DNA of 64,000 nucleotides. Origin: Nereocystis luetkeana (taxonomy: Eukaryota > Sar > Phaeophyceae > Laminariales > Laminariaceae). Of this stretch, positions 1,251-59,109 are shown piece by piece. Made by a program: the position numbers and the translations under genes. Each line of letters starts with the position of its first letter. Positions within the stretch are counted from its first letter, which is position 1. The DNA lies in NCBI GenBank assembly GCA_031213475.1, contig JARUPZ010000002.1, positions 16,084,738 to 16,148,737 of the forward strand, written 5' to 3'. Below the pieces are notes generated by a model. It worked only from the letters and a program-made list of their open reading frames with translations. It ran no database searches and was not told the origin of the DNA.

Positions 1251-3371
1251 GCCCCCCGCCCCTGGGTCCCATTCCGACGTAACGCCTCATCTAATAGCAA
1301 CTCGAGCCGCCGCTCCGTTCTTCCGCCCTCTTATGTGGTTCCCCCTTCCCTCCTCCCGACGTGAACGCCCCATCCAATATAGAGCCCAAAGACGATGCTC
1401 CTCCGTTCCTCCGCCCCACCTGCTTTTTCCTTTGCTGCGTCCCAGATTATCTCCGCTGTACTCGACGACCGCACAAAGGCGAAAATTTCGTTCTTGACGA
1501 GGAAGGAGGCCCCCGCGAGGTTGGCGAGGCACGTTGACCCTTCCTACCTGCCGTCGTCGCTGCCGGGGGGGCTCGACCCTTTCCGCTACAGCAACAAGGC
1601 GTACCTCTTGATTTGACTCCCGAACACGGAGAGAAAAGAACACTGCGGTTGTTTTTTTGTACAGGAGACTTGGAATCTCGTTGTTTATTTTTGAGGCCTC
1701 GATCGCGACCCTTTTACGCTACAGTATATGTGTGGTAACAACAGGGCTTATTTTTTGCCTCTTGGTTTTCGACCGCCGGAAGCAGCAGTATCATCACAGC
1801 AGTAGTAAGAGTTAAATTGTTTTTAGATTCTTGTTTTTGGTCGTTTGCGTGTTTGCGTGCGTGCGCGTGCGAGTCGCGGAATCTTAGCTCTCGTGTGTTC
1901 TTTAGCTCGCAGAATCCTGTTTCATGTGTGCGGCTCCAGGATTCGTGTCTCGTGTGCCCTTCACGGAATGTTATTTCGTGTGCCGCTCACGGAATATCAT
2001 GTCGGGGTGGATTGTTTTCGTGCGGCCTCGGTTAGATTGGTCCGTTTTTGTTTTTTTGTTTTTTGGGAGTGTTTTACCGTATTTTCGCCGGCTTTTATTC
2101 CGTTTTTTTTTCTTGTGGCGGTTTTCTCTCGCTTTTGTGTTTGCGCGTTTTTTGTTCCTCTTTTTTTTCGTAACTGTTTCGAGAACAGCTGCGCGAGGTG
2201 CAGGGTAGCGAAACACACAGTGCGCGTAGTGTGTCATGGAAGGACTTCTGCAACTTTTTAGTTTTGTTCCCGTATCACACACGATTTCTGCCTCCCTCCT
2301 AGGCAGTCAGTCGCCGATACTGCTGTATGTAGTCTTATCCCCGGTAGTTTTCACTGGTACGTACGCAGCAATTGGCAATTTTACTCCTTTTGCTATGTAC
2401 TTAAAAATGGACCCACTCTCATTCCAAGTGGTCAGTTTGTCGCCGAGAAGTGCGGTGCAGTTCTGGAGGGGAGAGGTTAAGTTCACATTTTTTTCAACTT
2501 ATATATAACTTGTTTTTTTTTTTTGTTTTCCACTCGTCTGCTGATTGAGGCATTTCATTCGTTCGCTATGTACGAATATGGTGCCTTTTTTTTCTTCTTT
2601 TTTTTTCACCTGCCCTACGCGGGGGCCGCCACTTGCCTTGTCTTACGCCATGCAGTCCAGTTTCCCCCCCCGTTTTTTACGTATGTATGCGCACAGGGAC
2701 GTACCCCGAACCTCCGCCGTATGTGCGGTGCGCGTAGGTTTGGTAACGCCGATCCCCCTGGTTGCAACACGCACGCACGCACAGCACGGCCCTGATGGCC
2801 TCGGTTGCGCTACGCACGAAGGAGGAGAGATGGCGGCATCTCCTTGGCCCCTTTTACGAACAGCTTAGCGTGGATGCAAGATCGAGCGTGCACGCCAGTA
2901 CATCATGTATATGGAAGCCGGCGGGCGTTGTCCCCCCCGCGCCTCGCCTCGCTCCGCCCCGGCCCCGAAGTAGTTTACGATGTGGTTTTGATAGTGTCGC
3001 GTATTCTATCGATACGAACTACTACCGGATCAATACGATAGACCAAACAAGCAAAAGTACCAGGTAGGTATTAATAGATATGCTTTGGGAATATATTGGT
3101 TCGTGCAGTAGCTGGGGCGGCTGGATAGGAAAATCGCGGCCGATTCTACACCACCCAGAGTCTTTTCTCGTTTCTTGTCTTTATTTCGTACTTTGCGGTT
3201 TAGTTGATTTGGAGCTCGATTTTTTTTTTCTGCGTTTTCTTAACCGTTCTACAGCTCTGAAAAATGGCACAAACTATTTCCGAGTAGTTTGTCCCCCCAA
3301 AGCGTGGGTAGGTGCAGCTCTTCTTGCGCGACAGGTTATCGTCGATAGGATGAAAACATGGGGGGGGGGGG

Positions 3372-3612
3372 AGTGGTACTTATGTCATGCATGGCCGTAG
3401 TCGTATGTATTGACCATAGACCCTCACATCCCTACAATGCTGGGACGGATCACAAGTCGAATTTTCACTGACCAGGCAGATACTGCTTGCGTTTGCGCGA
3501 AGCGCGAAGGGCCGTGAGGTGTTCGGCGAGTCGCATGAAGTGTGAGATGCATCCTACTGAGAACCCGCTTGTGAGGCGGACTTTCTTGCATACGGATGAC
3601 AGCGTAGAATTA
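3372..3612 (-). mobile_element. Dispersed LINE-tail family R1, copy A
   Basis: About 230 bp shared with 13681-13905, and in shorter form with 21300-21465 and 62552-62665. The conserved core is CATGCATGGCCGTAGTCGTA, followed by CCCTACAATG and GTGTTCGGCGAGTC. The 3' end (left edge) abuts a G11 run at 3361-3371. A shorter piece with the same edge is at 3640-3675. Confidence 0.6.
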
Positions 3613-5089
3613 GTCGATTTATTTTCCGGTGTGGTGGAGAGGGGGTACTCATGTCATGCATGGCCGTAGTTGGATGGCAGTGGGTGGGGTGGGGGGTAGA
3701 GAGCAGCAACATTATGAGCTGTCCGGTATGGTATCATGCCAGGCACGTAATGATGTCCGACAAGGTGTTTTGATTTTATTTCTCATCAAAACACGTGTTG
3801 GGTTGCCCGCGGTTTACAGCCAGAATCGGCGGGAAAAGTTATACCCTGGCATACGTTAGGTCGAGGTTTATTCCAGGTTCTTGCGAGCGAAATTGTGGAA
3901 GCCTGATCCTTCTGTTCTTGCTGCTCTACCTGCACGTTCCTACCAGGTAATATTCTTACTGTAATAAATTGCGTATCGCTTGTTTGTCCATCTTGACCGT
4001 CTCTTTTGTTTTGTGGTATTCGCACCGCAATATTTTCGCGCCGTGAAAAACTGTTTCGTTGCAAATAAGCACGTACTTCGAGTATATATTTAATGCATTT
4101 CGAGCACCTATCCAGGTACCTACGTACCGGTATTTAATTACATGTAAACAAAGTACGAGTACATATTTCCTGCGCATTTCTTCTTTTTTCGTTTTATTTT
4201 TGTAGTTTTGCCGTGCGCTGTGCTTGGTGTTGCTGGATTCTTGACAGCAGCGCTGGCATTGGTGTACCATTCATTTTGGGTCTGTGTGTGTGCACCCGGT
4301 ACAATAGGCATTACTGTATTAATACTTCGTATTATTAATAGTAACTCGCTTCCTCTTTGCGGGTTCCAGTTGCGATCCCACTCTGTCTGCCGTGGAATAT
4401 AATATCCGCCTGGGGTCTGAGGTGAGTGTCAAACAGGGCGTATACTCCCGGCAGATGCCAGGGTGGTACCTCTTTGCTCACGGACAAGGGTAAATCACGA
4501 ATCATCCCAGCAGCTACCAGGTAGATGCTTAGTGACGGGTGTACTGCTGTCCGTAGTACTTACACTTCTGAGCCAGCGCTTACAGTCATGTGTCTTGTAT
4601 TCAGTTCAGCTCTCAACCTGCATTCAGTATTCTCAGCTTGTAAACCTGAGTCTCTATTCTTGGTAATTGCAGATATGTCTGTCTGCCTGTCTGTCTGTCC
4701 GCATCCCTTGCATTTTCGAAATTATATTGTAGTTCGCTTTTATAAGTAGTATCTCTGGCGTGCTGTGTGCTGTGTGCTGCTGCTGTGTCTGTGCTCGCGT
4801 CACCTCATTTGCTCACGATCTCAATCCCTGTTTGCTTGCTGGAAATTAGTTGGAAACTTGCTTCAACTATGCTCTTGGTCAGGAAAATCCGCTTTTCCCC
4901 GTGGTCTGCGGTAGTCGGATCTACGCGCCATTTTTTTTCTGTGGAAGAATCTGGTGCGTCACAATACCAACAGAACGAAGCAGAAGTGTATGTAGGATGC
5001 TGAATGCCCTTCCCGAGCCACGACGAATATCCCATATCCCTGCCCAGTACGATCACTACAGTAGTACCGATAGACGCTCAGTATGAGCC

Positions 5090-5235
5090 AACCCCCGCCT
5101 GTTGGGGTGCCGTCTGTGCCGGTGCCGACTGGTCTCATTCGTCACTCTCATTAACTCTGTCTCCGACTCCACAAAACGAAAAAAGAGCAAACCGAAAACA
5201 GCGCTTGAATACATTTCATCGAGGGCAATAGCAAT
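5090..5235. repeat. Dispersed repeat R6, copy 1
   Basis: Shares the ordered blocks GCCGACTGGT, CGTCACTCTCA, CACAAAA, ACAGCGCT and TCGAGGGC with 7880-8020. I see no coding capacity or terminal structure, so the class is unknown. Confidence 0.5.
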
Positions 5236-5444
5236 CAGCATATATATCTCTAGGAATCAGGACGGGCACTGGGTGTACTGATGAAGCTGTGTAGAAAGGG
5301 CGATTGAATGGGAAGACAACACACACAATGATCGACGTATTACTATACCAATAGTTCGCTACAGATGATACCTGGTATTCATTAGAGGTATTCGACCCTT
5401 AGACCATATATACTGAAACATACCATGTTTCCACCAGGTAATAT

Positions 5445-6480
5445 TTAGTCATAATATATGTATTCACCACACCGTACCATCATACCGTACCACCAACATA
5501 CCATATCACATACCGAGTTTATAAACAGATGCATCATAAGGATCGTTTGTTCAACCTTCAACAAATTAAACAGACCGTCAACTTCCACATCGACGGCGTG
5601 CCCGCTTTTCTTGCCCTTTTTCTTCCCCCTATTGGAACAACTCTTCTGCGCAAGCTTAGGGCAGTCGCGCTTGAAGTGTCCGGTAGCCTTACAGTGGTGG
5701 CCTTGGTCGTCGCTTGACGCAGCGGCCATCGCCGCTCCACGCCAAGAAATGGGAGGCGTAGACGACTTCCTGGGCAAGTCGTCGATGTGGACGTTGATTG
5801 CGATCTGTTTAATTTGTTGAAGGTGGAAGGAACGATCCCTATGATGCATCTGTTTTATAAAATCGAACCCCTTCAGGAAGGAATTGAGCAGAGCGTCGGC
5901 GCAGGTGTCGAGGATGGCCTCCCCCATGTCCTCCAATCTGAGCCGCAGGTCGTCTATGGGGGTAGCGATGAAGTCAACTGGGTCGCCATCAGGCTTCATC
6001 GACTTGGAAAAAAGTTTATCCCGGCACGCACGACGGGCTTCTCTCGTGTTGCCGTCGAAACGCTCCTGCAGGGCGTTCCAGGTGGCAGCCCCGTCGCCCG
6101 CGCAACCCAGCTCCTTGACCTCGTACGCCCGCGCGGTGATGTGCACGGATCCCATGGTCATGAAGGACCCATGGGCATGAAGGACAGGACGGAGAAGAGA
6201 TTGATGTTGGCCTTCTTTCAACTGTCACGTTCAGTCGCTGGTTTTAGGGTTAGGTGCCCCATCGATAACGTGGAGCATATCCAAGGCGTGGAGACTCAGT
6301 GCTTGACGCATTTTCCCCACCCACTCGCGCAAGTCCGTTGTGCCTTTGCACTTGCCGATGCCGTCAAGTGCTCGGTGAAACGCGGTGGAAGTATAGTCTC
6401 TCTTGGCTTCGTAATTCTCACGCGCCGCAGGAGTCGACCAACTGCTGCTACGCGCGGGACGCGTAGATCGTGAGCACCCC
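5445..6480 (-). mobile_element. Decayed Copia-type retrotransposon gag (UBN2-like)
   Basis: The minus strand encodes a gag-polyprotein fragment. It reads TWNALQERFDGNTREARR, then a conserved helical block with LRLRLEDMGEAILD and LLNSFLKGFD, then a zinc-knuckle remnant CKATGHFKRDC next to a Lys-rich stretch. This order is typical of Ty1/Copia gag of the UBN2/DUF4219 type. The knuckle lacks its first Cys, the frame changes near 6216-6228, and no protease, integrase or reverse transcriptase follows. It is therefore a dead fragment. Part of it is present twice in inverted orientation (see the inverted repeat at 5524-5856). Known of the family: gag packages retroelement RNA in cytoplasmic particles. 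The identity rests on motif recognition; I cannot see LTRs. Confidence 0.75.
5524..5856. repeat. Inverted repeat of a gag segment (~83-bp arms)
   Basis: Bases 5524-5606 are the diverged reverse complement of 5771-5856. Arm 1 begins AAACAGATGCATCATAAGGA and arm 2 ends CCTATGATGCATCTGTTT. Each arm encodes, on opposite strands, a version of the gag peptide around LQQIKQ. A spacer of about 165 bp lies between them. Confidence 0.75.
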
Positions 6481-8600
6481 TGTAACGTCCCGAGTACCTA
6501 AAAGGCTCGACGCGCAAAAAAACAGTGCCGGAGGATTAATAGTGCTACACGCAGTGAGTAATGATGGTTAGGTTGCAGCCCGGAAACCCACAACCTGCTT
6601 CCGCAGATACTCTTCCAGTGTCCGCCCAGACTCCTGTGCTCCACGAGTGTACAGGTCAGATCGACAGCGGGTGGCTAATCTGCCGAGCTGTGGCGTCGGA
6701 GTTGCCAACTCCAGCCACGTTCTGAAAGCACACGGGTCAGGTGTGCCCATAGACTTGGTACACGTCTTTCGGTGAAGACGTTTGGCTGCTGCAGATATGC
6801 TAGCAGGCCTACAGTAGTAGTTAGACCCTCAGGCTACACACGTACCGAACACAGCACGCGGAAGGTATCTTGGACAAACTCCACCTCGCGTGAACCACGC
6901 TCAGGCGATTTTGACGTCAGTCGATTCACGCTAAGTGTGTATGAATGAGGCTGCAGTAAAAAACAATTGCAGCCTTCGAAGCCAAACCCTCAGCCTACAC
7001 ACGACGCTACCGAGGCGGCACTCCGCACGTACGACGTGGAGAATATTGGACCCGGCGTCGCCCCGCCATAAAAAACGCGCTGGCTGTTCGGATGTCAGTC
7101 GCGCACAGGGAACGCCAAAAGAAGGTACTCTGCACGCGGCCAACAACAAAATTTTGCACAACTAACTCTATTCGCCGACCGAAATCAACGCCTAGAAATT
7201 ATGCCCCGCGAATGAATGCTTTACACAGAACAGTATCGTACCGAACGTGCAGCCGTGAACCCAGGTAGGTGATCAGTCCGGGCCCTTTAACAAGCGGGTT
7301 GACTCAGTGCAGACGTCCAGCAGAAGAAGCTGTCTCCAGCAGAGAACACCCCGTGGAGTGTAGATGTGTATGCACAACAACACGCGATGACAGCAGGTCG
7401 CGATCACCGGAAGTATCCACTCGCCACGCTCGAGCTCATGGGCTATTATTATGGGATGTTGTATACCCTTGGCACAGTGAGTGGCAGAGGCTGTGTCTCT
7501 CGGTGTTAGTCGAGGTGGTGACACTGCGAGCGGGTAGCAGAAGTGAAGTATAAGATACCTTCCTGCAGCGGAGACGATGGTGTGAGGTAAACACGGCGCT
7601 TATAACACACAAGTATATAAACCACAGAATACACTGAAGTCCGGACGATGGTATAGCTTCTCAGAGATGATAGGACAGCTAGAATAATACCATGCCAATC
7701 CAGAGAGATGCACCATGAGTGAGGTTCAGGAACCTTCTATTATTAATATTATAGGACACTACGAGTATATACGGCAGTAATTCCTACGCATACATACGTT
7801 AAATGCCAACCGACCTATCATTAGATCTACACTATGCACACAAGAGCAGTGCTACTGTGCTGTACATGGACTGTGCCAACCTATAACACCCCGCCTGCCG
7901 TGGTGCCGACTGGTGGTCTCTCTCGTCACTCTCAACGACTCCAACTGATACTTCACAAAAAAAAAGACAAGCGAAAAACTGTGAAGAACAGCGCTCGAGC
8001 TTAAATCGAGGGCGATAACTCTCTGTACCATCGTACATGCTCTGTGGTCGGTACCATGATATACCTGGTATATATATATCTGTGATATCTGACGTGAATC
8101 GAGAAACAAAGCGATTCAGGGCATGTACGTGGCAGCGCGTCTTTCATTTTTTAGAGAGATTGTGTATATCTTTGTCCTCGTCGTGTGGATATCGACCATG
8201 CTCGTATGTGATATCAACGACAACAACCAACACTGCGAGGAAGACGGAGGTGCTGATCAACCCTGTTTTGGTACGTACGTGGTACCTGATAAAAAACGCC
8301 CCCAAAAATAGAGCCTCTTTCGCGCGCATTCAAAGAAATATCCCAATATCCAAAGGACCGATCCGGCACTGTCAAACAAATAACGGCAAACGGTTTTCTT
8401 TCATTTTTTTTTTCCGACACATATTTTAGATCTCGTTTCCTCCGCTTTGATCGATCGTGATCTACACCTACCTACTACCTGGTGCTTGCTTGCGGTACTG
8501 CTGTGGATACCGTTTGTTGTTGGTAGACGAGTGTATAGAGCGACGAGCGGCGAGTGAGTGAGCGTGTCTCTTGTCTCTCTTTCGACTTACAACCACGACA
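6481..8600. other. No recognised gene
   Basis: Contains a second copy of repeat R6 (7880-8020) and a diverged tandem pair of about 140 bp (roughly 6815-6950 and 6955-7100, sharing CCCTCAGSCTACACACG). A minus-strand ORF at 6568-6750 with a plausible acceptor upstream has no recognisable family. Confidence 0.4.
7880..8020. repeat. Dispersed repeat R6, copy 2
   Basis: Partner of 5090-5235; the ordered blocks match over about 140 bp with small gaps. Confidence 0.5.
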
Positions 8601-8612: not shown

Positions 8613-11015
8613 ATGGATGGAACTCCTACGAGATTGTTGAACGAGGTGAGTCTCGTCCTTGGAAATGGGCGAAGCTATGTAATCCTAAGGTTGTCTAACC
8701 CGAAGTATCACACGCTGTGTGCTTGATTCAAGAACGAGAGTTGTACGTACGTATATAGATACTTCGACGCCGAGAGCACAGAGCCTCGGAGGCGTAGCCG
8801 GCTGCTTGCTACTTTGCTGACTAATCTGTGTGCCTTTTCCCAGTGAGCCTCGATATGGTTGTGCTGCACTGTACTGCTGCTGTAGTCCCACTGCGTGTAG
8901 AAAAATCTTTACCTGCGCCTGCCGACTAAATAAACACGGCGGCAGTGCGTGCTGTCTTGTGTTGTGGATGCACGTTCGGTTGAGCCCTCCCACCCACTGC
9001 TGCCGCCACCGTGCTTGTCTTCTGATCATTACCGTGGACCATAGTTAATAGGACCTATGGTATAATAAAAACCTATATATTTCACCATTTTCACTGACAA
9101 TATTTGGTCCTATTAACTATGGTCCGCCGTAATAGTTAAATCCCACAGGGAGAAAAGTTTCTTGGAAGGGAGAGACTGGCTTGCGGCGTTGAGCACTACT
9201 CACCAAAGTTTTGAAGATCATGGCGGACGCCGATGAGCTGACGGGCACGGAGGGGCAAGAGCCGCTGACGGAGAGGACGGTGCGGACTCCTTTTTTTTGT
9301 GCAGTGTTTATTTTTTTTGCTCGTCAATAATAATATTCATGTTCTTTGCTTCTCGTCGCTCCCGTCGTAGGGATAGCTTTCAGCTTCGTATAATATCATA
9401 CCTGGTACCTGGTATCCTATTATATTCGTGTTACGGAGATATTCGCAAGTAGTAAGTGTACGGCGAGCGATGGGCAACACACCGCTCGAGAGAATAAGCT
9501 GTACCAGGTACGTACAGATATTTACACGTACGTACGTGTGCGTGCTGTACGGCGGTCGACACCACTCACTCGTCCTACTGAACTCGTACATACACCACCA
9601 CCCGAGATTTCCCCCTTCGCAACAATACGTATGATGTCAACGTTGTTCTCCTCTGCGGGGCGTTGTTGCCGGCTTCCTTCTCGCCCACCTACTAGCTATT
9701 TCGAGGCAACCCGAGTTTACTGCGCGGATCTGAAGCGTACGTACACACGACGAATTGTTGGTGAAAACATCTCAACATTCCGGAACCAAAGTGAACTTAG
9801 TGGCGAAAGTGATCTATCTGTAGACACACACCGGTGCACTTACGAGTTCCACTATGAACACGTAAGTACGGATTCGACCGTACCGGCTGCTATTACGGGG
9901 GACCATATTTAATAGGACCAACCTACGGTATACATAAAAAGCTACCTAACCTGGTATATATTTAACCATTTTTAAAAACAATATTAGGTCCTATTTATTA
10001 TCTATGCCCCCCCGTAATACTACAGTAGTAGTACGAGTACAGTAGGTACACTGGTACCGATATGATTAAAATACCAGATGCTGAGGGCTTGGCGTAAAGT
10101 TCGTGGACGTACGATGCTGTTATGCCGCTCGACTCTTTGACACAGTATCACAGCTGCAACAGTACAGCAGAGAGAGGCGATTCTCATCATCGCGTTTCGT
10201 CAGCACCTAGTTTCCAGATCATATACTCCAATGGAAAGAATGCATGCACTACAACAAGGTACCAACTGTAACAAATACGTACCAGTACAGCAGTACTGCG
10301 GTTCACTTTGTTGGACTGAAACACTCTGGAGCTACTACTACTGTATGTTGTGTACGAATACATGCAACAGGCACTCGTACTCTCACAGTAGTCTGATTTC
10401 GCCCGCAGGCAGAAGAACCGTTAATTAATGTGCGGGTATCCAAACAACCAACCGAACAGCGCCTGGGACGCTGTTTTCTCTTTACATACCTGGTATACTT
10501 GCATCTATCGCCGTTAATTTTATCAGTGTCTATCGCCTCGTGGTGGCTTGCACAGATCGAAATCCTCGTGGCAGAGATCCCGGAAAATCTTCAGCAGAAG
10601 GCGAAACGCCGAGTGTGCTTGGCGATGGACAAATACGACATCGAGAAAGACATAGCCACGGATGTCAAAAAGCATTTTGACGAGGAATGTGAAGGCTCGT
10701 GGCATTGCGTGGTGAGCAAAACCCAGACAGACGAGCAAATTGGTGGGCTCGGTGTACGTATTGGAAATGGTTTACCTTTCTTTGTTTTATTATTTTTCTT
10801 CTTCTTCTTCTTCTTTTTCTTCTTCTTCTTCTTTTTCTTCTTCTTCTTCTTTTTCTTCTTCTTCTTCTTCTTCTTCTTCTTCTTCTTCTTCTTCTTCTTC
10901 TTCTTCTTCTTTTTTTTTTTTTTTTTCTTCTTTTTCTTATTCTTCTTCTTCTTCTTCTTCTTCTTCTCCTTCTTCTTCTTCTTTTTCTTCTTCTCCTTCT
11001 TCTTCTTCTTCTCCT

Positions 11016-11050: not shown

Positions 11051-13042
11051 TTATTTCGGGGTAGGCGTTTCTGAGTGATCAACGTCGAAGCTAATACTAC
11101 AAATACATCAATTATCGGATGGCAAACGCAACAACAATAAAAAAGAAAAACATAGATAGGTAGATACGTGCTGCAGCTGTCGCTAGGATCTCGCGCAGGC
11201 AGGAAGAAATTTATTACTTACTGTCGTCAACGTGCGTGCGTGCGTTCATTGGCGCAAGGTGCTTACGTCGTGTATGTCAGATTTGGTCGTACACGAGCAG
11301 ATGATGTTATTACGGGGGACCATAGTTAATGGGACCTATGGTATACATAAAAACTTATATATTTCACCATTTTTACTAACAATATTTGGTCCTATTAACT
11401 ATGGTCCCCCGTAATAGTCGTAGATTTCGCCGGTCGTGAATCCCCTTTAAAATCCAGTAAAATCAGGCTTCAGCCAGCTCGAAAGGGGGGGCCCTCACCC
11501 TTAAGGCACCGCGGTGCAATGTAATACTTTAGGAAACTCGGATTTATTTGTGTACTTTGTTTTCGTTCACACCGGTAACGACGTATCTGTACAGTGTATC
11601 GTCAGCTTCAGGTAATAATAACGACGACGGCGGGAGCATCTGTGTCTACTGTATGAGCCGCCGTCGAGTACCACAATTTGGTCGCAGCACGTCGCCTGTA
11701 TCTTTCGGCCATTCCGGTCCGGGTTCTCCATCATAATAACCACTGTATGGCAACCATCAGAACTACCGTATGTATGCGTAACCTACGGTCATCCATTCAT
11801 CCGTTGAGAGAAAAACGTATCCGAAGCATCCAATACCATGCGTCTCCAAACGTACATAGCACCACGTAGCTGGTATAGAGTAGTGCGCCAATGCGTTCGT
11901 CGCTTTCGGCGAGGTGCTCCTCGCTCCTCTCGAGCGGCGGGATCAAGCGGAGTCATGCCATAGGGCCGTAGAGGGGGGTATGTGCTGTACCTTTTTTTTT
12001 TTGCATGTTTGTCGCGGTAGAGAGGGGGTATATATGATGCATATTGCTTTTTTCGTCAGGTTTCTTGCGTACGACGAGCTCTCTAAAACCGCATCCCAAA
12101 GCGGACTCTCTTTTGCGATTACGGAAATCGTTCGCGCGCGCCGAAAAAACAACCAGCAAAACTCTGTAGTACGAAGTACCAGGTAGCACACAACGGGGTT
12201 GCCAACAAGGATACTGATAGTATTATAATCCGGGGGAGTCACTGGCATATATCCTTGACAAGGAAATACATATAGAATACGCGCGAACGGCTTCTCATAA
12301 ATTTGGAAATTCAGTAAAAATATGATATAGACGAGACATATTACGCAGCTTGCAAAGTTGAGTACCCACTATATAATCAGTCAAACTCACAGCTGACGTA
12401 TTTCCTAATTTTATAAAATATTATTATTACGGGGGGGCATAGTTAACAGGACCAAATATTGTTAGTAAAAATGGTTAAACATATACCAGGTAGGTTTTTA
12501 TGTATACCATAGGTCCTGTTAACTATGGTCCCCCGTAATAGGTGGATTTGCAAATATAGTGTTGGGGCACATAGACCCGCAAATGAGGAGGGAAGCCTTC
12601 GAGGTCAGTCAGAAACAATTGGGGGCCCAAGAGTATTCCCATCTACGGCACTGTAGAGGCATACCCGCACCGTAGACGGATACCGCACTGTAGAGGCATA
12701 CCACACTGTAGAGGCTTCGCTCGGCGCATTTTCTATCTCGTCCTACCCCGGTCAGGATCAGCCCAAGACCCAAGACTGACAAAAACGTATCGAAAACCCT
12801 CACGCCCCCTCCCCTCCCCGCCCCGTTCCCACTCCCCCCCCCCCCCCCCCCCCCCCTCCTCCTGCTGCCTCCTTTGTTATTTACTCTTCGCCGTTGCTCC
12901 TTGCTCAACGCATCACGCTCCATCCACGTGCGTGGCGTAGTCTGGGCGGAGTTTTGGATGCTCCGTCACCCACGAAACGAAACATTTGTTTTTTTTCAAG
13001 TGCGACCATATTTTCGTGCTGCTCTTCTGCTCCCCGGAGTAG
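8613..13042 (+). CDS. DYNLL: Dynein light chain, LC8 family
   Basis: Exons 9217-9279, 10556-10711 and 12941-13042 (stop TAG) join in phase 0 at every junction. A further exon, 8613-8645 (MDGTPTRLLNE, donor GAG|GTGAGT), also joins in phase 0, giving 117 aa; without it, translation starts at 9220 and gives 105 aa. The core is unmistakably LC8: KYDIEKDIATDVKKHFDEE, then GSWHCV, then SGRSFGCSVTHETKH, then a hydrophobic strand ending VLLFCSPE. Human LC8 aligns residue for residue, with IVGRNFGSYVTHETKH at the same place. LC8 is a homodimeric hub that holds dynein intermediate chains and many other partners; longer versions occur in flagellar outer-arm dynein. Introns are 571, 1,276 and 2,229 bp and carry four MITEs and a TTC array. 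The last acceptor (GTAG) is preceded by a C24 run. The first exon is the least certain part. Confidence 0.88.
9028..9134 (+). mobile_element. MITE, copy 2
   Basis: Same family as copy 1. Both arms carry the AGTTAATAGG version. It lies in intron 1 of the LC8 gene, ending about 80 bp before the acceptor. Confidence 0.85.
9891..10019 (+). mobile_element. MITE, copy 3
   Basis: Full-length and diverged, with small internal insertions, one containing CCTGGTATA. It lies in intron 2 of the LC8 gene. Confidence 0.8.
10794..11053. repeat. (TTC)n microsatellite, ~260 bp
   Basis: Nearly pure TTC/CTT with TTTTTC and TCC interruptions, 80 bp after the exon 3 donor of the LC8 gene. It creates long artefactual Phe, Ser, Leu or Lys frames. 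The polypurine/polypyrimidine tract could form triplex DNA; that is inference. Confidence 0.95.
11308..11416 (+). mobile_element. MITE, copy 4
   Basis: Intact ends TATTACGGGGGACC and GGTCCCCCGTAATA. The arms are TTAATGGG / CCTATTAA, one substitution from symmetric. Intron 3 of the LC8 gene. Confidence 0.88.
12425..12540 (-). mobile_element. MITE, copy 5
   Basis: Arms carry the TTAACAGG / CCTGTTAA version on both sides. The interior contains an extra TACCAGGTAGG. Intron 3 of the LC8 gene, about 400 bp before the last exon. Confidence 0.87.
12641..12716. repeat. Short tandem repeat, CGCACTGTAGAGGCATAC-type
   Basis: Four diverged units of about 18-20 bp. The core CCGCACTGTAGAGG recurs in the 98-bp tandem repeat at 21451-21650. 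Confidence 0.7.
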
Positions 13043-19040: not shown

Positions 19041-19047
19041 CTAATTC

Positions 19048-19148
19048 TATTACGGGGGACCATAGTAAATAGGACCTATGGTGAATACGAAAACCTACCT
19101 GGTATATATTTACGTATTTTTACTAACAATATTTGGTCCTATTCACTG
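19048..19148 (+). mobile_element. MITE, copy 6 (right end lost)
   Basis: The left end TATTACGGGGGACCATAGTA is intact. The right arm degenerates after GGTCCTATTCACT and the GGTCCCCCGTAATA end is missing. Confidence 0.8.
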
Positions 19149-22371: not shown

Positions 22372-22372
22372 C

Positions 22373-25411: not shown

Positions 25412-27129
25412 GTGTGTTAGATCGCTATGTACAGCAGTAGATTTTATTATTCCATTGCTGACGGTGTTTTGTAGGAAGTGAATGCGCCGTGTCTTGAATC
25501 TTGAGTTTGCGTGATGATACCAGTATCTACTACTACTGTAGGAAGATCCTATAATAGTGACGGTTTCGTCCAGAGCGAATTCTTCATCACACTCTTACGA
25601 AAACACTTTTTTTCCTTTTTTTTTTAATCATCACTTTCACTTTCCAGCTTAACTCGTAGGAGGTTTTACCCTCGACGACCTTCTGGACAAGCCGTGGGCA
25701 CAGGTGTCTACCCTTCTCCCCCCACGCTCTGTTGAATTATTAGTAGAACCTCATACGAGTACAGCAGTAAGTAGAACAGACACGTCATATCATAGAATCA
25801 CAGATTTGTGAAGCATCCTTGCTACTACAGTACGTAAATGATTCGTGAATCATTTTTGAAAAGCAAGCGTCCGTGTTTTTCGAAGCAGATTTCCAGTCTA
25901 TGTTTTACAGTGTACTACTGGTAGTGCTTTTTGAGGCACCCTTGCCTGTAGGCTCAGCTTGATCTCTTGTCCTGTACCTGATGGTACCTGGTAGAGCTGG
26001 TGAGACGAGTTCCCCGTCGTAGCATGTCCTTTCAGTTGAGGACGGGACGTATGCCAGTACCACATAAATATCTCCCTTCGCTCTCATGCCCTCAACATCC
26101 CCGCACCCTCACAGCTCGCATACCGTCGTACACCCACACGAAAATAGCATCTCGTTGGCTTACTCTAAGACGATTACTACTACGAGTACTGAAGATGAAA
26201 AAAAAAAACTACCGCGATGTACCTACTCCCAGCTGGTCCATCTCATAGACCTGATGGTGTTGCCTGGCCGCGGATCTTGGGCCAATCCCGTCAGAGGGAA
26301 GCAAACATTTTTTGGGCCTATATATCGCAACCTCGCACATAAGATTTTATTAAGACTGTATGTAGAGCAGAGCCAACGATATGCGTTGCTCTGCCGCTCC
26401 CTAGTTGCTCCCTAAAGACGTGTGTGTAAGGCAATTGAGGTGGTGGTGGTCGGTGTTCCGGGTTTAAGGCTTGAGAACGTTTTGTTAGCTTCTAACTCAG
26501 ACGCGAGTCGATGATGGAAGAAATAGCTGAAGTCTTCTCCCGATAAAAATGAAGGCAAGAACCGTGGTGGGGAGGGGGAGAGGACCCTGGATCTGGGTTA
26601 CGACTATTAATAAGAGGGAGAGAGAAAGCAAGGGCGAAAAAGTAAGCGGGAAGGCAAAAAAAATCCGAACAACAACGAGTGACAACCAACCTAATTTTGG
26701 CTCTTCTTGCATAACCCTCCATGTATGTCTACACACGCCTAGGAAATACGGGTGCGTGTGTGTGGTTTAGGTCATTTTTTTCTGGTACCCCTGCGAGCTC
26801 TGAAACACACACCCAGCATGGGGCCGACCCGCCGGAGGAATATATTTGCGATCTTAAGGGTAAATAGTCGCCCGAAACCACATAGAACACGCGCTGTGTC
26901 GGGTATTTCTGTGTACCACACAATTTTTCCCGGAGACATTGCGCGGGTGTGGCCTTGCACGGAGGAGTATTATATTAAGGCGAGAGGCCGGAAAGAGCTT
27001 AGAATAGGCAATATTCAGTGCTGGTCTTATTTATAGTGCCAGGTACGTCCATAGGGTTCTGGTTCGCAACTGGTGAGATGCCCACGGGCGCGTCTCCAGC
27101 GACGTTCTGGCCAGCTGCCCTTTTCCCAA
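25412..27129. other. No recognised gene
   Basis: Contains the second copy of repeat R3 (25612-25735) and one TACCTGGTA word near 25987. Plus-strand exon-like pieces with strong splice signals occur nearby (25065-25104, GTAAGT donor) but cannot be assembled. Confidence 0.4.
25612..25735 (+). repeat. Dispersed repeat R3, copy 2
   Basis: Partner of 14262-14385. It follows a T run and contains ACTTTCCAGCTTAACTCGTA. Confidence 0.6.
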
Positions 27130-34351: not shown

Positions 34352-35011
34352 TATCTACGAGGTATACGTACGCACTCCTCCTGATTTTTCTCGCGTTCAA
34401 ACACGGTAAAGTAAGGACAATCTGATTTTTGAGATTGAGACGATTGGCCAGTCTACAGCAGTATTTAAAATGCTTGAATTCGTCCATCTGGGAAGCTGTA
34501 CGCTTGTACTGCAATGGAGGACACTCGTAGCCTTGATCTGTGGGCGTTGACGAGTCCGTTGGCCATTTTCTGCATGTTGCCGCGCAGATGGGGGTACGTG
34601 TGCGAGGAAGTTGACGACTTTCCAGATTACATTCCTGACATGGGCTGCGATGGAGAGTCCAAGTCCGGAGCGACTCCGGGTGAGTGACAATTGCATTGTT
34701 CCATTCGCCCTTGCGAGAGAGGCTTTATACGACTGCAGGGTAGATATTGGATATTTGTGTACCGATATATCGGTCAGGTTCTCCCTCCCGTCCAGCTCGT
34801 ATATATATCGTAGCGTCTGCGATTTGGTCCAGGTTGAATAAAATCATTGATAGTCCACATTATTAGCTCCTAATCAATTTTTCTTCCGAGATTTTTCCGA
34901 GGCAATCGAGGTTAGTGTTAGCTATCAAAGTCAAGTACCTGGTACACAGTATTTTAACCATTTTTTCGGAGCGGGGCAAAGGTCTATACAGCCCTCCTCC
35001 CGTCTTGGCGT

Positions 35012-35362: not shown

Positions 35363-36180
35363 TAATAATCACATATACAAGGTCCCCTCCTGGATTGTGG
35401 TTGATTTGAAACCCCCTTGAAACCCCCGCGGGTGTCCCAAACTGAAAAGGGAGAGAGAGCCCGGCAGGCGTTCGCTCCTCGTACCAGCTACTCGAACATA
35501 CCCACCGGGCAAGAACGAAGAATGCAACAATCTCTTGAAAGCTAAAAAATAAAAAAAAGTAGTGCCACCGAGCAGTACCCGGGCAAGTAACGCCGATCAG
35601 CCCGAACGAGTTTATTAGTTCTGTATCGGATGTCGCTTTTGATTTGGTTTCTTCAGTAGAGGAGTAAAATACTTGAGTCTGCAGGCGTGCGCGTTTCACG
35701 AGAATGCCCTTTTTTTGAATATTATAGTACCGGGTGTTTGTTTTTTTTACAATGTTTGGCACGGAGGATATCGGTGGAACTTGTGGTGATTCCATCAAAT
35801 CGATTGCCACCAAAGAGCTTCACGTACCGTTTTCAGTGGAAGTCACGGGGGCAGTGCGCAGGGGTGTTTCATTTGGTCGGTCCCGGGCCGCATTTTCTAC
35901 CTGGTACACAACAGGCGCAAGGCGAGCCTTGCGCCCCCTACGACCCTCAGGTGTCCCTCGACTGATAAAGGGGTTACGCTCCCCTTGAACTTGGCCGCCG
36001 TGAGGCACTTGGTCGTTGGCTCGTCGTCCCAACACGCACTAATACATACCTGCGTCCCTGGGTGCTTGCTCGTTTGAAGTATGACTTGTCCTCCCTTCCC
36101 CCCGTCGCTGTCTCTGTCGGCCACTCTGACGCTCGCAAACTCGCAAACACTGCTGCTGTGTGATTATTCTTCTGTCTCAG

Positions 36181-40750: not shown

Positions 40751-43700
40751 ATGGCACCCTCTCCGTTTGAAGAAGTTGATGTGAGCCCCCATGTGTCTGA
40801 ATCAATCATTTCATTCGTCGCAAACGCTAAACTGCCCCTGCTTCCCATTCCGCACCACATGAAATCTCGATAGCTTTTCGAATTGCTTCGTACGACGACA
40901 CATTTTATGGGTTGTTTTCGTGGTCCAAAATGTGGCAATGGGTGCTGGCAGTTGTGCTTGTCCGCTGAGTGCTGCATGGAGCAGATTTGGGGCGGGATGT
41001 GAGTTGGATGATTCGTTCGCCTTGATGATGATACAGAGAATCTCAGTTGTGAGGGCCTTACGGCGGAAGATACGTAACAAACTTTACATTCAGCGCTCGG
41101 ACTACAGAGTTTGCAGTATCACCCAACACCCAACAAGCAACAGAACCGGCGCAGGGCAGCTACAACAGCAGTACTCGTACTGCTTGTTATATTGATCAGG
41201 AGAGCCGCGACCCCCCAACATACTGCAACAACATTCGTACATGCACTCGCACGTCGTACATGGTAGACACGGCACCTGGTAACTCTGTTAACCCCGGTAA
41301 CTCTGTTAACCCCTTTCGTGTACCAGGTGCATCCAGTAGATGTACACGCATACCCCCGTACGCCGTACACGCACCGACTGTTGTTATCCACCTGCCACGC
41401 CCCGCGCGGCAGATGAAAATTTGCGTCAGCCTGCTGCCGAGCGACATTGCGGACATCTACGCCGGCATCCGCCGCAACATCTACCAGTTCCTGATGCGCT
41501 ACAATGAATCCGTCGGTGGCGTCTTGCTAGCCGTCTCAGACCTTTCGTTTCCCGACGGCGCTAGGGACGGCCGCATCTCCGACGAGATGCCGCACATCCA
41601 CTTCGACGTCAAGGCCAAGGCACAGGTGTTCCGGCCGCGACCCGGCCACGTGCTGGAGGGACGTGTGAACAAGGCGAGTGATTCAGGCTTCCTCGACGTT
41701 GTGCGATAATGGTTTACCAGGTACGCCTCAACATGGCGACGCTAAAGGGACGCACAGCAGCACTACAACAGTAGCTCTACTGCTATTGGTGGTTGCCCTT
41801 CTACTGTCAGCAGTACTCGCAGCTCTATTGCTGGCTCTATTGCTGCCAGCAGTAGCTCTACTGCTGTCAGCAGTACAGTAGCTCCACTGCTGTGGTTCTC
41901 CCTTGTCACACGAACTGCCGGTTTCGGCATCCCCGTCTCCGTGCGCTGTCGTCTGCTTTGCTTGCGAATGCCGTGTTGACACTAGAGATGGGCATTATGA
42001 TTCGTAGTTGTTACCGCCGGTGTGTCGTGATCCCACGTCTCTCTGCGTTAGCAGTGTTGTTATCATACTGTGAACTACGACGGCTAGAGTGTATGACAGC
42101 TCGGGCTGAGAGAGCAGTCCGATGACAGGATGAGACAGGGAGAGATGATGAGTCAGAACCGAGGGGCGAGCAATCTTCGTTGCTCTCGTGGTGCTCGGGT
42201 CAAGGGACAATTCAGCGGGGCCTTGCTAAATCCCGCTGCGGAGAATCCGCTTGGCAGAATAGCCGCCGCTGAGGAGCCGTCTGCGGAACGTGGAGGAGAA
42301 GGCTCCGTGGCGAGATCCATACGTGACAATCTCCCGAGTTCCCCGAGCAAAGCTTCTTGAGGAGCTTTCTCGAAGGACGCTGGGGTTTCGACTATGTGGG
42401 TAGGCGTGTTGGTTCCGGGGGCATGGCATCACATCACCCCCCAGTTTTGGTGGTGATAGAGCTCGAGTGGATGGAGAATGGAGAAATTGAGGTGCTCAGC
42501 GAGCAGCAGCACAACGGAATGCTACAACAACCGGCAAGTCTATCACTTACAACGGAATGCTCCAACAACCGGCAAGTCTATCACTTGGAAGAAAGTGATA
42601 GACTTGCCGGTTGTTGGAGCATTCCGTTGTGCTGCTGCTCGCTGAGCACCTCAATTTCTCCATTCTCCATCCGCTCGAGCTCTATCACCACCAACACTGG
42701 GGGGTGATGTGGATGCAAGTGATAGACTTGCCAGTTGTTGGAGCATTCCGTTGTGCTGCTGCTCGCTGAGCACCTCAATTTCTTCATTCTCCATCCGCTC
42801 GAGCTCTATTACCACCAAAACTGGGGGTTGATGTGGATACCATGCCCCCGGAATCAACACGCCTAACCGGGACGCAACAGGACTACTAGCAACTGATAGT
42901 CTTGCCAGTTGTTGAAGCCTTCCGTTGTGCTGCCCGCTGAGCACCTTAATTTCTCCATTCTCCATCCGCTCGAGCTCATGGTTGACGATGCGGGCTGACG
43001 ATGCGGGCTAAGTGGTCTCTGATGGAGGCAGTTGAACTATGGGGGCCTGAAGCGTTGGGGGGGGTCCGTCCTGCCTTCCTTGCTCTCGTGGGTCCCCGAA
43101 GAACGTAGCGAGTCCTTCTGTGCTGCTGCAATGTCGGGGTCGGGGTTGCAGTTCGTAGTAGACATACTTTCAACTCTCGACTCGAATCGACTTGTGCCGT
43201 TGGTAATCAACTACCGTCAGACGCCAATAAGATTCGTAGTTGTTACCGCCGATGGGTCGTGATTCCACGTCTCTCTGCGTTAGCAATGTTGTTATCATAC
43301 TGTTGAACTACGACGGCTAGAGTGTATGACAGCTCGGGCTGAGACGGCAGTCCCATCACAGGATGAGACAGGGAGAGATGATGAGCCAGAGCCGAGGGGC
43401 GAGCAATCATCGTTGCTCTCGTGGCGCTCGGGTCAAGGGACAATTCAGCGGAGCCTTGCTAAGTCCCGCTGCGGAGAATACGCTAGGCAGAATCCGCTAG
43501 GCAGAATAGCCGCCGCTGAGGAGCCGTCTGCGGAACGTGGAGGAGAAGGCTCCGTGGCGAGATCCAAACATGACAATCTCCCGAGTTCCCCGAGCAAAGC
43601 TTCTGGAAGAGCTTTCTCGAAGGACACTGGGGCTCGACTATATGGGTAGGCGTGTTGGTTCCGGTGGTATCCACGGTATCGGATACTATGAATAATTTCG

Positions 43701-46720: not shown

Positions 46721-47599
46721 CATTCTGGACGTGTTATATACCTGGTACACGAGTAGACGTTTTTTTTCTAGCTTTCGCTGCTGTAGACCGCGCGGGAAGG
46801 TGTGCGAGTTGCTTCGGTTCGCCGTTTCCACAGGAGGGGTGAGGGGGGGTGCGGGGCTATATAGCTGAAGCAGTCGATGCGTACTGCCGGTCATTGCAGT
46901 GCTTCGAGGTCGCCGACCATGGTGCTATGGCCCGCCTGCGACAACAGCAGTGACATCGTTCATCTTTATTTAGCTGTGACATAAATATGACACACCTGAT
47001 GCTGCATCCTGTGTGTATTCGTTTACTTGCTCAGGTACTACTACCATCGTACGAAAAGCATTCCCAGGTTTACAGCAGTATTATTAGTAGTATACGAGTA
47101 TGGATTTTTTTACTGCTTGCTTGTTTATCGCCCCTCGCTCGCCCATCCTGCCCTTGCCCTGAATTCTGATGGTAACGTCATCACGAAACTTGGAACCGTG
47201 GCAGAGGGAACCCCCCCCTCCCCCCCCCGTCCGCTCCGGCCATTGCCATTCATTTCTATGGCCCGCCGAGTACAGCACCCCCTATGGTCGTTCGCAGACT
47301 TTGATCGGATTGTATTTTCTCACCCTACGCGATCGCGCGAGAGCCCTACGGGTGGGTTTTTTGCGCAGCATTACGTTGAACTCGCTGAGGCTTGTTGATG
47401 AATCGCAGCAGCCCAGGCGAAGAACGAAGATGATTCAGGTTTTTAGTATGATCAGAGTAGAGACAGCATAAGGTGACCATGTGAGTATCACGGACACCCA
47501 CAGAAGTAACGACCAAGTAAACGACATCCCGAATAGTCATGAAACCGTCAAAAATACTGAATAAGCGATTGAGCACATTCGAACAAGGCTGCGCCTTGC

Positions 47600-47950: not shown

Positions 47951-48098
47951 AAGCTGAACATTTGTTGGGGAGGTTCCGTGAATTCTTACCATTTTCCTCT
48001 TGCTCCTGGAATTTTTTGGACATAATTATGTGATGAAGTTATGATGTGTAAATTGTGAGCGAAAAAGTCGTTCGTCTTGCCCGGGTTTCAGTGAGTGC

Positions 48099-49727: not shown

Positions 49728-49760
<33 letters not shown>

Positions 49761-49962: not shown

Positions 49963-50600
49963 CGGACTGGCTGACCTCACCGTGAATCAATTTTTTGTGG
50001 CATTTTTTTATTCGTACGATACTCGTACTCGTACGAGTATTCGTTTTTTGTATGTTCGTGTTTTGCAATAAAAAACTACCAGAGGTACCCCAGGTAAAAA
50101 AGTACGTCTTGCGCTTTCCTTGACCTGCTCGCGGTGACAAGAGGCTTGGACGGCAGGACAGGAATGCAAGCAGTGTGGATTTGATCTCGGCTGAGTGCTG
50201 AGGGCTGCTGTTAGATTCTCGTTTAACGTATGAATGTTTCTATGAGTCATAGACTGCGCCCACAGCCTGACTCTTACTGGTACGTAGATACTCGTACGAC
50301 ACCTCTGAAGGACCCAGCAGCAGCGACTTCGTCAGATTTCCTCTCTGGCGTACCAGGTACCAGTATACGTATGTATGTATGTATGTACGTATGTATGTAT
50401 GTACCTGGTACTTTTTAGGGAACCAAGAACGAGCACCTCAGGCACGGCAGTATCGGGAAATAACGTCCTTTACATACTGGAATCATTAGAGTTGGATCGT
50501 TTTTGCTGTGTTTCTTGAAAAAGAGAAGAAAGAAAAAGCGTCACACCTGCTGCTGTTGTTGCCGCTGTGACTTCTCGGAATGGCGTCAATATAATGCTTG

Positions 50601-51165: not shown

Positions 51166-51578
51166 GTTATTAGTTGCACGAGTTCGCAAATTCAAATATG
51201 TGCGGACGATCCTGCGTTTCGCGAGATTGAGTGGCAATCACCGACCTTACGTTTCAAGCGTTCGTGTAAGTGCCGGTCGTGTTTCGCTACCGATCCGCGG
51301 TGGATGCAAGACCACAACACCCGTAAACAAGACAATGAAACAACGAATACGTACGTACTCGTACGAGTAGCGCCTTGGGGGTACATACACAGCAGTACCC
51401 TATGAATGAGGTAATCGGACCTAACCAAGACGTTTCGCGGGGTCACCGTTGTCGTTCTCGGAACGCGGCTGCTGTCATTATTCTTGGACGACAATGAACA
51501 TGTGCTATTTCCTTTCCGCCATTTTTTTTTACACGCCCGCCACCCCGTCCACCCCGTCCACGCCGTCCGGCCTTTTCC

Positions 51579-53340: not shown

Positions 53341-56300
53341 GCAGCAGCAGCAGCAGCAGCGGCGTCAATAGCTCGACCACAAGACCTTCGCCCACCAGCC
53401 GCCGAGCCACCAGCTCTGCCAGGCGCGGCGCCTATAGCCACGTGGGAGGGAGAGGAGGGGCGGCCTCGTCCGGGGGAAGGGGAGGAGGCAGCTCCCAGTC
53501 GCGGGCGGCCGCCGCAAGGCGGCGAAGGCAGCAGACGAGCGAGAGCAGAAGGGGGAGGGTGAGGGAGGCGACCCCGAGCGAAATCGCGCAGGCGATGTCT
53601 CAGTTCATTCCTCACGGCCACCCCCTCCTGCACAGGTGGCACTTCCATGGAGCAGCGGGAGGAGGGGGAAGGGGGGGGGCGGTGGACTGGGCGCTGATGG
53701 GCAGAGACCTTACCCCTGCGGACTACCAGCGACTGCTGGCGTTGGGTGAGTGGAGTGCGTACGTAGACGGTGGCGGTGTGTGCGTGCGTGCGTGCGTTGG
53801 CAAGCGAGTGAGCGCGTGCGTGCACTGTTTGTTCGGTCGCCGTCGGCGGCCAATGTAGGGCGCAAGCAAGAAAGAAAGAAAAAAAGGCAGAGTGCACAAT
53901 CTGCTACGAGAGTCCGAGAACGATCTGCCTGGGCACGTATCATCTGTACATACATACATAAATACATACATACATACATACATACATACATACATACATA
54001 CATACATACATACATACATACATACATACATACATACATACATACATACATACATACATACATACATACATACATACATACATACATACATACATACATA
54101 CATACATACATACATACATACATACATACATACATACATACATACATACATACATACATACATACATACATACATACATACATACATACATACATACATA
54201 CATACATACATACATACATACATACATACATACATACATACATACATACATACATACATACATACATACATACATACATACATACATACATACATACATA
54301 CATACATACATACATACATACATACATACATACATACATACATACATACATACATACATACATACATACATACATACATACATACATACATACATACATA
54401 CATACATACATACGTGTTTTGCGTCGTTTGTTTTTTCTGCCATTCTCTCCATTCTCCGTTGTCAAGTTTTGTACGGCATGTATACCTACCGTAGCTGCTT
54501 ATGTTTTGTGTTGGTTTTGTTTTTCTACATGCGGCCTTAACACCTGTACAGTTGCCTCCTTGCACCAGTTTTTCTCCACGCCCTGGATTATTAGTACAGT
54601 ATGGCGTGCGAACATGTCTCTCTCTCTCTCTCTCTCTCTCTTCCTGTTCTCCCCCCATGTGGCCGGTGTCTCCTTTATTCATTTTTTTCGTTGTCTGCTC
54701 TTTTTCATCCGGTAACTTTTTTTTTTTCTCGCGATTTTTTTTTGTTCCGCTGTCGATGAAATGTGTTTTGGTTTGTGCGTGTGTGGTGGGCGCGCTTGCG
54801 CGAACCGAATGACCCGACCGAAAACAGATGAGCCGGTAGCCGACAAGCCCACCCGCGGGGGGCTTTCCCTAGAGGAGATATCCATGCTCCCGCAACAGAC
54901 CGGGAACGGCAGCGGCCCCATGGAGCAGTGCTGCATCTGCATGGACGATATGACCTCGAGGCAGAGTATCACCCGACTTCCGGCGTGTCTGCACACCTTC
55001 CACAGGTACGTATCATTCGTGTGTACATACTCCTACCAGGTACGTTTTTAATGTAAGTGTAGAAAGGCACCTAAGCTGTGAATATCGCATATTGGTCTTT
55101 GATCAGAAACTTGTATCTTTTTGTCAAGGTGCGTGTGATTTTTGTAGATACTCCGATCGCGCGTGCTGCCGGATGGATTGGGCGTCGTGCTGTAGTTAGG
55201 ATGTATGTTTCGTTGCGTGGTGTAGTAGGTGCTTGACGCCCCCCCCCCCGCTTTTTGGTGGTGTTGACGCAGTGTCACATACAATAACTGCTGCTACGTA
55301 CTATCGGGATGCACACATCCCGGAGCTACATCTGCTGTAATATTGATATTCGAAGTAGGACATACGATACTCGACGACGTGCATGCTAGGCTTGCTTACC
55401 GCTTTCTGGTGGTGTGCCGTACTGTGGCGAGCACTGCTGTAGGCCATGATTCCATGGATGAGGGGGTATTTTTTTTAATGACTGGCGGAGCACCAAATTG
55501 TCCGGTGGTCGATCAAAACCGATTTCAACATCACGTGGAGAACCGAAACACAGCCCTCGTACTTGTGGAAAACTCATCCCACACTAATTTCAAGTGTTTT
55601 AAAACCGTGGGTGCAGTTCTCAATCCCTTTTAGGGCTGCAATCCCGTTGTGGGGGAAAAACTATTACGGGGGACCATAGTAAATGGGCCCAAATTTTGTT
55701 AGTAAAAATAGGTAAATATATATATATTTTTTGTGTGTGCTGTAGGTCCTATTATATATATATACTATGGTCCCCCGTAATAGTTCAAAATTTGAGTGGT
55801 TTGTCCCCCAAGCGAGACTGCAGTCCCGAAAGGGTGTTGGGGTCTAAACCCTTTTGTTCGGATATACTGCTGTCGGACGTGAACTTGGGATCACGTGGCC
55901 TACCGATATAGCGAAGGAAGAGCGGTAGATATATAGTACACCATCACCGAAATACACCCACACACAGAAAGAAGCACAGATAGTACCTGATTGTCGAAGG
56001 CTCCAATACAGACCAAGCGATCCAATACCTTGACGTCAGAGGTGCCGCGACATAAACCACACAGGAGTAAGCCGTACCTTTTCGTCACTTTCTGCCCTCT
56101 CGTATATAACGAGGAGTATCTTAGCACCAAACCCCGGGTCGTATCTTAGCATCACGACTGCCTCGCAAGGCGAGCCATGCCCACATACCGTATGACCAGG
56201 CATACCAAATAATGCCTCGACACGTAATACGAAACCCCAGAATATTTATGAAACCGTCAGATATCCCCACACCAGTACGGAGTACAGCGGATCACGAACA

Positions 56301-58718: not shown

Positions 58719-58744
58719 GTCGACCGGAATGCTGCTGCTGCTTC

Positions 58745-58777
<33 letters not shown>

Positions 58778-58894
58778 CTTCGCAAGGTGCGCCTTTGATA
58801 TGTCGACCACCGAGACCGGGAAACGCCTTCCGCGGGCGCTGTCGTCGTAGGCAGTGGAACCACTTCCAGGCTTTTTGCCACGTCCCTTACCCAT
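58719..58894 (-). CDS. First exon of an unidentified gene
   Basis: ATG at 58894 opens MGKGRGKKPGSGSTAYDDSA, then RGRRFPVSVVDISKAHLAK and an Ala tract (GCA codons broken by GAA). The frame meets TGA just after the possible donors TTCCG|GTCGAC (exon end 58725) and CGAC|GTGATT (58719). The basic N terminus and Ala runs look coding. No family recognised, and no second exon could be chosen downstream on the minus strand. The competing plus-strand frame is a CTG-repeat artefact. Confidence 0.45.
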
Positions 58895-59109
58895 GCGAGC
58901 GCGTTCGTTCGCCCAGCGCTGTGTACGGGGATGGCATGCCCACGTTGTTCGCGCCGTTGTTGTTTTCTGTTGAATGGGCCAGCCAGCCTTTTTTTTCTTT
59001 GTTAATACCTGGTACGAACTAAACTACAAAATACTGCCTGGTGTACTCGTGTCTGCTGTGAGTTCTCCCGACTGAATACTCGTTGCGTATAATGTGTGTG
59101 TATTCTTCA

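Follow-up and report, generated by a model that had tools for sequence, protein, structure and literature searches.

The palindrome TACCWGGTA, in large excess across the genome of the brown alga Nereocystis luetkeana, is probably a transposon excision footprint

The nine-base palindrome TACCWGGTA (W being A or T) occurs 182,395 times in the 465-Mb genome assembly of the brown alga Nereocystis luetkeana (1,987 contigs), that is, once per 2.55 kb and about 105-fold in excess over the reversed word, which served as the control and occurs 1,744 times. We studied this word in a 64,000-nucleotide stretch of contig JARUPZ010000002.1 (positions 16,084,738 to 16,148,737 of the forward strand, hereafter the window), in a larger sample that includes the window, and genome-wide. 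Where copies of repeats could be compared, the word arises through the insertion of 7 bp at a TA dinucleotide that is empty in most copies. The word is probably a footprint left on excision by a TA-targeting, Tc1/mariner-like cut-and-paste transposon with CCWGG ends.

Results

The full palindrome was found 22 times in the window against 0.33 expected, a count reached by none of 100 dinucleotide shuffles. The shorter word TACCWGGT gave 52 hits over both strands, against 3.45 expected from dinucleotide shuffles and again with none of 100 shuffles reaching the observed number; these hits correspond to 30 places, where the palindrome is complete in 22 and one outer base short in 8. A first-pass annotation of the window had proposed this over-representation by eye, and its ten coordinates were correct within 6 bases (3058, 8062, 9399, 12177, 31205, 34936, 46739, 50351, 55034 and 59006). 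It had also named two findings that would refute its observation, a genome-wide count near background and a single long repeat family carrying the word. The genome-wide count is far above that of the reversed word, chance alone accounting for about 1,700 of the words, and 89 of 106 runs in the sample have no sample relative that spans the site, which excludes one long repeat family for most sample sites; some sites do sit inside copies of a miniature inverted-repeat transposable element (MITE). The density of the window is typical, being similar to the 88 sites found in twenty 10-kb blocks chosen elsewhere at fixed steps on two contigs (200 kb; 0 to 17 sites per block). None of the 22 window sites lies within the three frames that match Pfam, among ten frames tested (27133-29493, 39516-40562 and, with a match that falls short of the curated cut-off, 5448-6224). 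The surroundings of the word are slightly AT-rich (GC 0.466 vs 0.508).

How the word arises was seen by comparing paralogous copies. An all-against-all scan of the sample uncovered 325 places with 3 to 20 extra bases between well-aligned flanks. Seven extra bases were present at 14 of these places, five times bounded by TA, and four of these five inserts read TACCWGG. Three of the four lie in the same MITE, a TA-bordered element of about 110 bp, at two different TAs; the fourth lies in an unrelated repeat (sample sequence L037 compared with L017). In copies of both repeats, the insert turns TA into TA-CCWGG-TA. The MITE itself is Stowaway-like, has TA borders and ends TATTACGGGGGACCATAG, and falls into two subfamilies; the 25 copies found in about 310 kb would scale to tens of thousands genome-wide, and those in the window include 782-894, 48096-48210, 55660-55784 and 59964-60070, among others.

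One internal TA of the MITE is a hotspot: 4 of the 25 sample copies, across both subfamilies, hold an insert there (words at 12484, 19096 and 9949 of the window, and position 2941 of L020, with CCTTGG). Since most sample copies are empty at this TA, we take the direction of the change to be insertion and not deletion. The exact occupied 32-mer of the hotspot has 305 copies in the genome, against 0 for its reversed control, and a hand count among the 100 of them listed gave A at the central position in 35 and T in 65, so that both W letters are found at one oriented site. The same TA also carries variants, the inserts observed being CCGG, CCWGG, CCTTGG, CCAGGG and CCAGGTTAGG; of 51 places that match a pattern with a base other than T after TACCWGG, 41 have CCAGGG. 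One MITE copy, in L067, has three separate inserts, and the inserts CAG, CGAG, CAGCAG and CCAG were likewise found bounded by TA. The variable joint at the hotspot looks like what end-joining would produce. TA-bounded CCG inserts at five further places were set aside: all had been scored against the single copy L016 and look like one deletion in that copy.

The excess depends on the TA borders. Among 1,119 words of the form TA-N5-TA, 127 have a CCWGG interior, and the runner-up interior was found 16 times. Conversely, the core CCWGG has TA flanks in 128 cases and each of six other flanking pairs in at most 5. A control of equal spacing, TAGG-N-CCTA, was counted 18 times against 3 for ATGG-N-CCAT, and these 18 may come from the GGTCC that adjoins TA in the MITE. 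The flanks outside the word show a modest target preference, for a base other than A at +1 (A in 0.04 vs 0.18 in the background), T at +6 (0.49 vs 0.25) and A or T at +7 (0.80 vs 0.54); these frequencies come from 110 collapsed sites with both sides pooled.

Copies with one mismatch are frequent, with 140 against a mean of 43.5 over 11 permuted palindromes, a mean raised by CTACWGTAG, one of the 11, which is itself enriched. Of 131 changes outside the central position, 73 are transitions, a share above the one third that equal rates for all changes would give; the exception in this spectrum is C to G at position 4, with 17 counts. All together, the one-mismatch copies look like unconstrained decay. 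Other words are in excess as well: TACAGTA (95 vs 46 expected in the sample), TACGAGTA/TACTCGTA (62 vs 13) and TACAGCAGTA (30 vs 1.8), which were noticed in the sample and in the window around 49152-51367. These words also turn up as TA-bounded inserts and may be footprints of other elements, in which case more than one footprint type is present.

Units also occur stacked with a 7-bp period. The stacked form TACCWGGTACCWGGTA was found at 15,917 places in the genome against 2 for its control, and the 182,395 sites collapse to 166,478 runs. Tandem arrays are not the main form, single units making up 101 of 111 sample runs, and the viral contigs scanned for the triple word contained none. Of the 59 stacked pairs listed for the plus strand and counted by hand, 40 repeat one W letter and 19 combine A and T; tandem copying alone is therefore insufficient. 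After collapsing the runs, TA was present at +6, +13 and +20 in 56, 37 and 30 of 214 flanks, where 11.5 would be expected from the TA frequency of the whole sample and about 20 is seen at neighbouring offsets. The excess is thus strong at +6 and modest at +13 and +20, as if intact units were surrounded by older, decayed ones. Because each scar supplies two new TAs, insertion of scars into scars is a simple cause of stacking. The approximately 166,000 runs are not all independent events, since copying of repeats or of duplicate contigs has multiplied some of them once the insertion was in place (as in L014 and L016) and about 1,700 words are due to chance.

The sites and comparison copies in the window are collected in Table 1. 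Elsewhere in the window, a 467-bp TACA array lies at 53947-54413 and blocks of 60-64-bp tandem repeats at 61183-62963. A widespread repeat that starts with GTGTGTGTGTTCTTCACATT and ends A-rich is present at 59094-59354, and in L007, L010, L016, L017, L037 and L090.

Table 1. Putative footprints and MITE copies used for comparison in the window.
Feature	Position	Strand	Source
TACCAGGTA footprint	3058..3066	.	window word scan
TACCAGGTA footprint	3941..3949	.	window word scan
TACCAGGTA footprint	4515..4523	.	window word scan
TACCTGGTA footprint	5369..5377	.	window word scan
TACCTGGTA footprint	8062..8070	.	window word scan
Two stacked footprints TACCTGGTACCTGGTA, 7-bp period	9399..9414	.	window word scan
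TACCAGGTA footprint	9502..9510	.	window word scan
MITE copy with 12-bp TA-bounded insert CCAGGTTAGG at the hotspot TA; partial word at 9949	9888..10019	-	copy comparison
TACCTGGTA footprint	10487..10495	.	window word scan
TACCAGGTA footprint	12177..12185	.	window word scan
TA-bordered MITE copy with word 12484-12492 from a clean 7-bp insert, TACCAGG, that is absent from most sister copies	12424..12541	+	copy comparison
MITE copy, other subfamily, with word 19096-19104 from a 7-bp insert at the same TA	19047..19147	-	copy comparison
TACCTGGTA footprint	25985..25993	.	window word scan
TACCAGGTA footprint	31205..31213	.	window word scan
TACCTGGTA footprint	34936..34944	.	window word scan
TACCTGGTA footprint	35898..35906	.	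window word scan
TACCAGGTA footprint	41715..41723	.	window word scan
TACCTGGTA footprint	46739..46747	.	window word scan
TACCAGGTA footprint by a GTAT array, near one of its edges	50351..50359	.	window word scan
TACCTGGTA footprint at the opposite edge of that GTAT array	50402..50410	.	window word scan
TACCAGGTA footprint	55034..55042	.	window word scan
TACCTGGTA footprint	59006..59014	.	window word scan
MITE copy without insert, empty site for comparison	11303..11421	-	copy comparison
Further empty MITE copies for comparison	9028-9136, 36662-36771, 60606-60719		copy comparison

Materials and Methods

The sample comprised 288 kb for TA-N5-TA words, 282 kb for word excess, flank composition and TA offsets, 310 kb for MITE copies, flank-pair dependence and one-mismatch words, and 330 kb for the indel scan and inverted pairs. 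L005 and L006, which overlap L004, were left out of the sample counts and are still contained in the 288-kb count. Runs too close to a sequence end were dropped, leaving 106 for the comparison with relatives, 110 for flank composition and 107 for TA offsets. L038, a duplicate of L037, was left out of the indel scan, the inverted-pair scan, and the MITE-insert and repeat comparisons; sequences of at most 2,000 bases were left out of the inverted-pair scan, and L053 (a duplicate of L050) and fragments shorter than 70 bases out of the MITE-insert comparison. Duplicate and plastid fragments seem to be part of the assembly: contig G000:C809 carries an exact 8.2-kb duplicate of C2, and rbcL has 131 matches, of which those listed lie on small contigs. 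Among solved chains, the rbcL translation comes closest to 8bdb, 7yk5 and 5mz2, followed at a lower level by 1bwv and 1bxn, and the plant chains rank far below. Such chains are of the red type, which agrees with a brown alga and equally with other algae that have a Rubisco of this type.

To look for the source element, the MITE hotspot was used as a trap. Two patterns, each with the left half of the MITE followed by TACCWGG and then by something other than TA, matched 85 places in the genome (51 and 34), of which 50 were read (30 and 20, respectively). Two of these were not MITE; the other 48 were MITE copies, including one from a duplicate contig.

Discussion

Our results suggest the following mechanism. 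A DNA transposon would insert at TA and duplicate it, as elements of the Tc1/mariner superfamily do, and its inverted ends would start with CCAGG (or CCTGG). The staggered cut made at departure would keep a few terminal bases on each flank; with the same sequence on the two flanks in opposite orientation, CC would pair with GG and only the central base would be mismatched (A/A or T/T). Mismatch repair would then settle on A or T, giving TA-CC(A/T)GG-TA and a net gain of 7 bp. The length of the overhang is our inference, and 3 to 5 nt would suffice.

In a limited number of paralogous copies from two repeat families, we observed a 7-bp, TA-bounded difference at a mostly empty TA, a hotspot TA hit in both MITE subfamilies, and heterogeneous junctions at that TA. 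Over the sample as a whole, we observed a modest preference in the target flanks, stacking at 7 bp and a decay that shows no visible constraint. The remaining sites of the genome would then share this origin, each recording a longer element that was inserted and lost. Membership of Tc1/mariner is suggested by the position of the insert, at TA and bounded by two TAs in both repeat families, and by an excess that needs TA flanks. Two published accounts describe mariner-type transposases as cutting element ends in a staggered manner, which leaves the TA duplication together with bases of the element ends (PMC4561436, PMC1925063).

Several observations weigh against this interpretation. Among the 17 runs with a spanning relative, only two, both in the MITE, gave a clean 7-bp gap; four share the scar in both copies, and for most of the others the alignment is too poor for a judgement. 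The dominant interior is 5 nt long, with variants of 4 and 6 nt, and not the 2-4 bp given as usual for Tc1/mariner footprints in a published account (PMC7913693). The CCAGGG form may partly reflect one amplified MITE subfamily, and same-W pairs outnumber mixed ones among the stacked pairs, so local duplication probably acts as well. Above all, neither the 330-kb sample nor the transposase loci and the 50 hotspot places read yielded an element with the ends TA-CCWGG...CCWGG-TA. The six TA-bounded inverted pairs starting with CCWGG in the sample all continue as CCWGGTA and look like neighbouring scars, and in 47 of the 48 hotspot MITE copies the right half starts directly or after one more short unit. 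Profile searches of the genome gave no match to PF13358 and none to PF01359, a profile that matched in no control genome either. No CCWGG-ended inverted repeat was found near the eight PF03184 matches read (3-kb loci).

PF03184 has 28 matches in the genome, with no link to the footprint, and the two longer regions (in L037 and L039) held no CCWGG-ended element; L039 (G000:C34:4442001-4452000) contains an inverted repeat of 1.9 kb and 99.5% identity that has PF03184 frames on opposite strands. Two candidate sources were rejected. In the remaining hotspot copy (L080/L090), about 263 bp lie between the MITE halves and adjoin TACCAGG in L080; this is a common GTGTGTG-type repeat whose other end is not CCWGG. 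An inverted-repeat element at 17520-20935 of the window has 84-nt arms, 74% complementary and about 3.25 kb apart, with TACCTGGCAGGCG inside the arms; its TACCTGG lies within the arms and not at their ends. If a source element exists, it would be rare, very mobile or gone; otherwise the 7 bp would have been inserted directly.

Such direct insertion is the main rival. It holds that no longer element was ever involved, either because a nuclease or transposase makes a nick at TA whose repair adds CCWGG or because a transposase moves the palindrome as a minimal mobile unit in its own right. It agrees with the failure to find a long CCWGG-ended element at any site read, with the presence of only short inserts at the hotspot in 47 of 48 MITE copies read, and with the frequency of stacked units. 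A W-centred palindrome, however, is the product expected of two identical inverted ends, the junction variants resemble those of end-joining, and we know of no precedent for direct 7-bp insertion; we regard it as unlikely. Slippage, with local tandem duplication of a 7-bp TA-N5 unit into a degenerate minisatellite, would explain the 7-bp periodicity and the same W in 40 of the 59 stacked pairs listed, but most runs are single (101 of 111 in the sample; 166,478 runs from 182,395 sites) and no further unit adjoins the MITE inserts at 12484 and 19096, so that we give it very little credence.

The first-pass annotation had offered three readings of the word, as a protein-binding site, a replication-related word or the footprint of a small mobile unit. 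The last agrees with the 7-bp insertion at TA seen where copies are comparable; the other two are not supported, the word decaying with no sign of constraint. A selected binding site seeded across non-coding DNA, be it for a transcription factor, an insulator, or an origin or nucleosome signal, would fit a palindromic, dispersed word in strong excess. It is nevertheless very unlikely: neither the origin as a 7-bp TA insert nor the 7-bp stacking is expected of a binding site, and one-mismatch copies are frequent and rich in transitions (73 of 131). Enrichment by substitution through a mutational or repair bias, such as short-patch repair at CCWGG, could be imagined because CCWGG is the recognition sequence of Dcm in E. 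coli. We hold it to be extremely unlikely, the excess being tied to TA flanks (128 against at most 5 for each of the six other pairs) and the change being an insertion wherever compared. Thus a binding site, a replication word and slippage all fit worse than an excision footprint.

Excision footprints are a known kind of scar, and it is the scale, about 166,000 runs, that is unusual. That of Sleeping Beauty, a Tc1/mariner element, has the form TAC(A/T)GTA. It shares with the word studied here the retained TA duplication, a short W-centred palindrome, a net insertion and TA targets; it differs in an interior of 3 nt instead of 5, and here some 166,000 runs lie in one genome and the element has not been found. 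HIP1-type palindromes of cyanobacteria are likewise short and in large excess genome-wide, whereas the copies compared show TACCWGGTA to stem from a 7-bp insertion at TA and to decay with no visible constraint, which is not what selection or repair maintaining the word would give. According to two accounts, footprints of Stowaway MITEs and rice Osmar elements consist of TA plus 1-4 bp of the element ends, with several types at one site (PMC1925063, PMC4561436). Retention of TA with element-end bases and several footprint types at one site are thus shared, but the footprints described there are heterogeneous and locus-specific, whereas here one form dominates genome-wide. In the brown alga Ectocarpus, a published account reports 17 Mariner-Tc1 families with almost 12,000 copies, mostly non-autonomous MITEs, and its main text does not use the word "footprint" (PMC12477816). 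Among the titles listed by searches of an open-access collection, none reports TACCWGGTA or a genome-wide footprint excess, and none of the listed papers that contain the letters of the word has a title on this subject.

It is conceivable, if rather doubtful, that scars are nearly all we know of this transposon, whose copies were removed almost completely and reproducibly, leaving about 166,000 runs at 7 bp per visit. If so, the genome would hold about 1.3 Mb of scars, each visit having created two fresh TA targets, and the element would be present in very few copies and hop at a very high rate, or be excised each generation. The latter would resemble what ciliates do when they remove TA-bounded segments in a programmed way. 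Ladders of scars within scars would then be a clock-like record of element activity.

The excision footprint also carries a warning, that over-represented short words in non-coding DNA can be scars and not regulatory sites. Scars in exons should be selected against because a 7-bp insert shifts the reading frame, and their avoidance of coding DNA, if confirmed, would need no regulatory explanation. Studies of footprints usually deal with a handful of cases. At one scar per 2.55 kb, a genome would offer a countable record of how active cut-and-paste elements have been in a eukaryote, how ends were joined and which targets were chosen.

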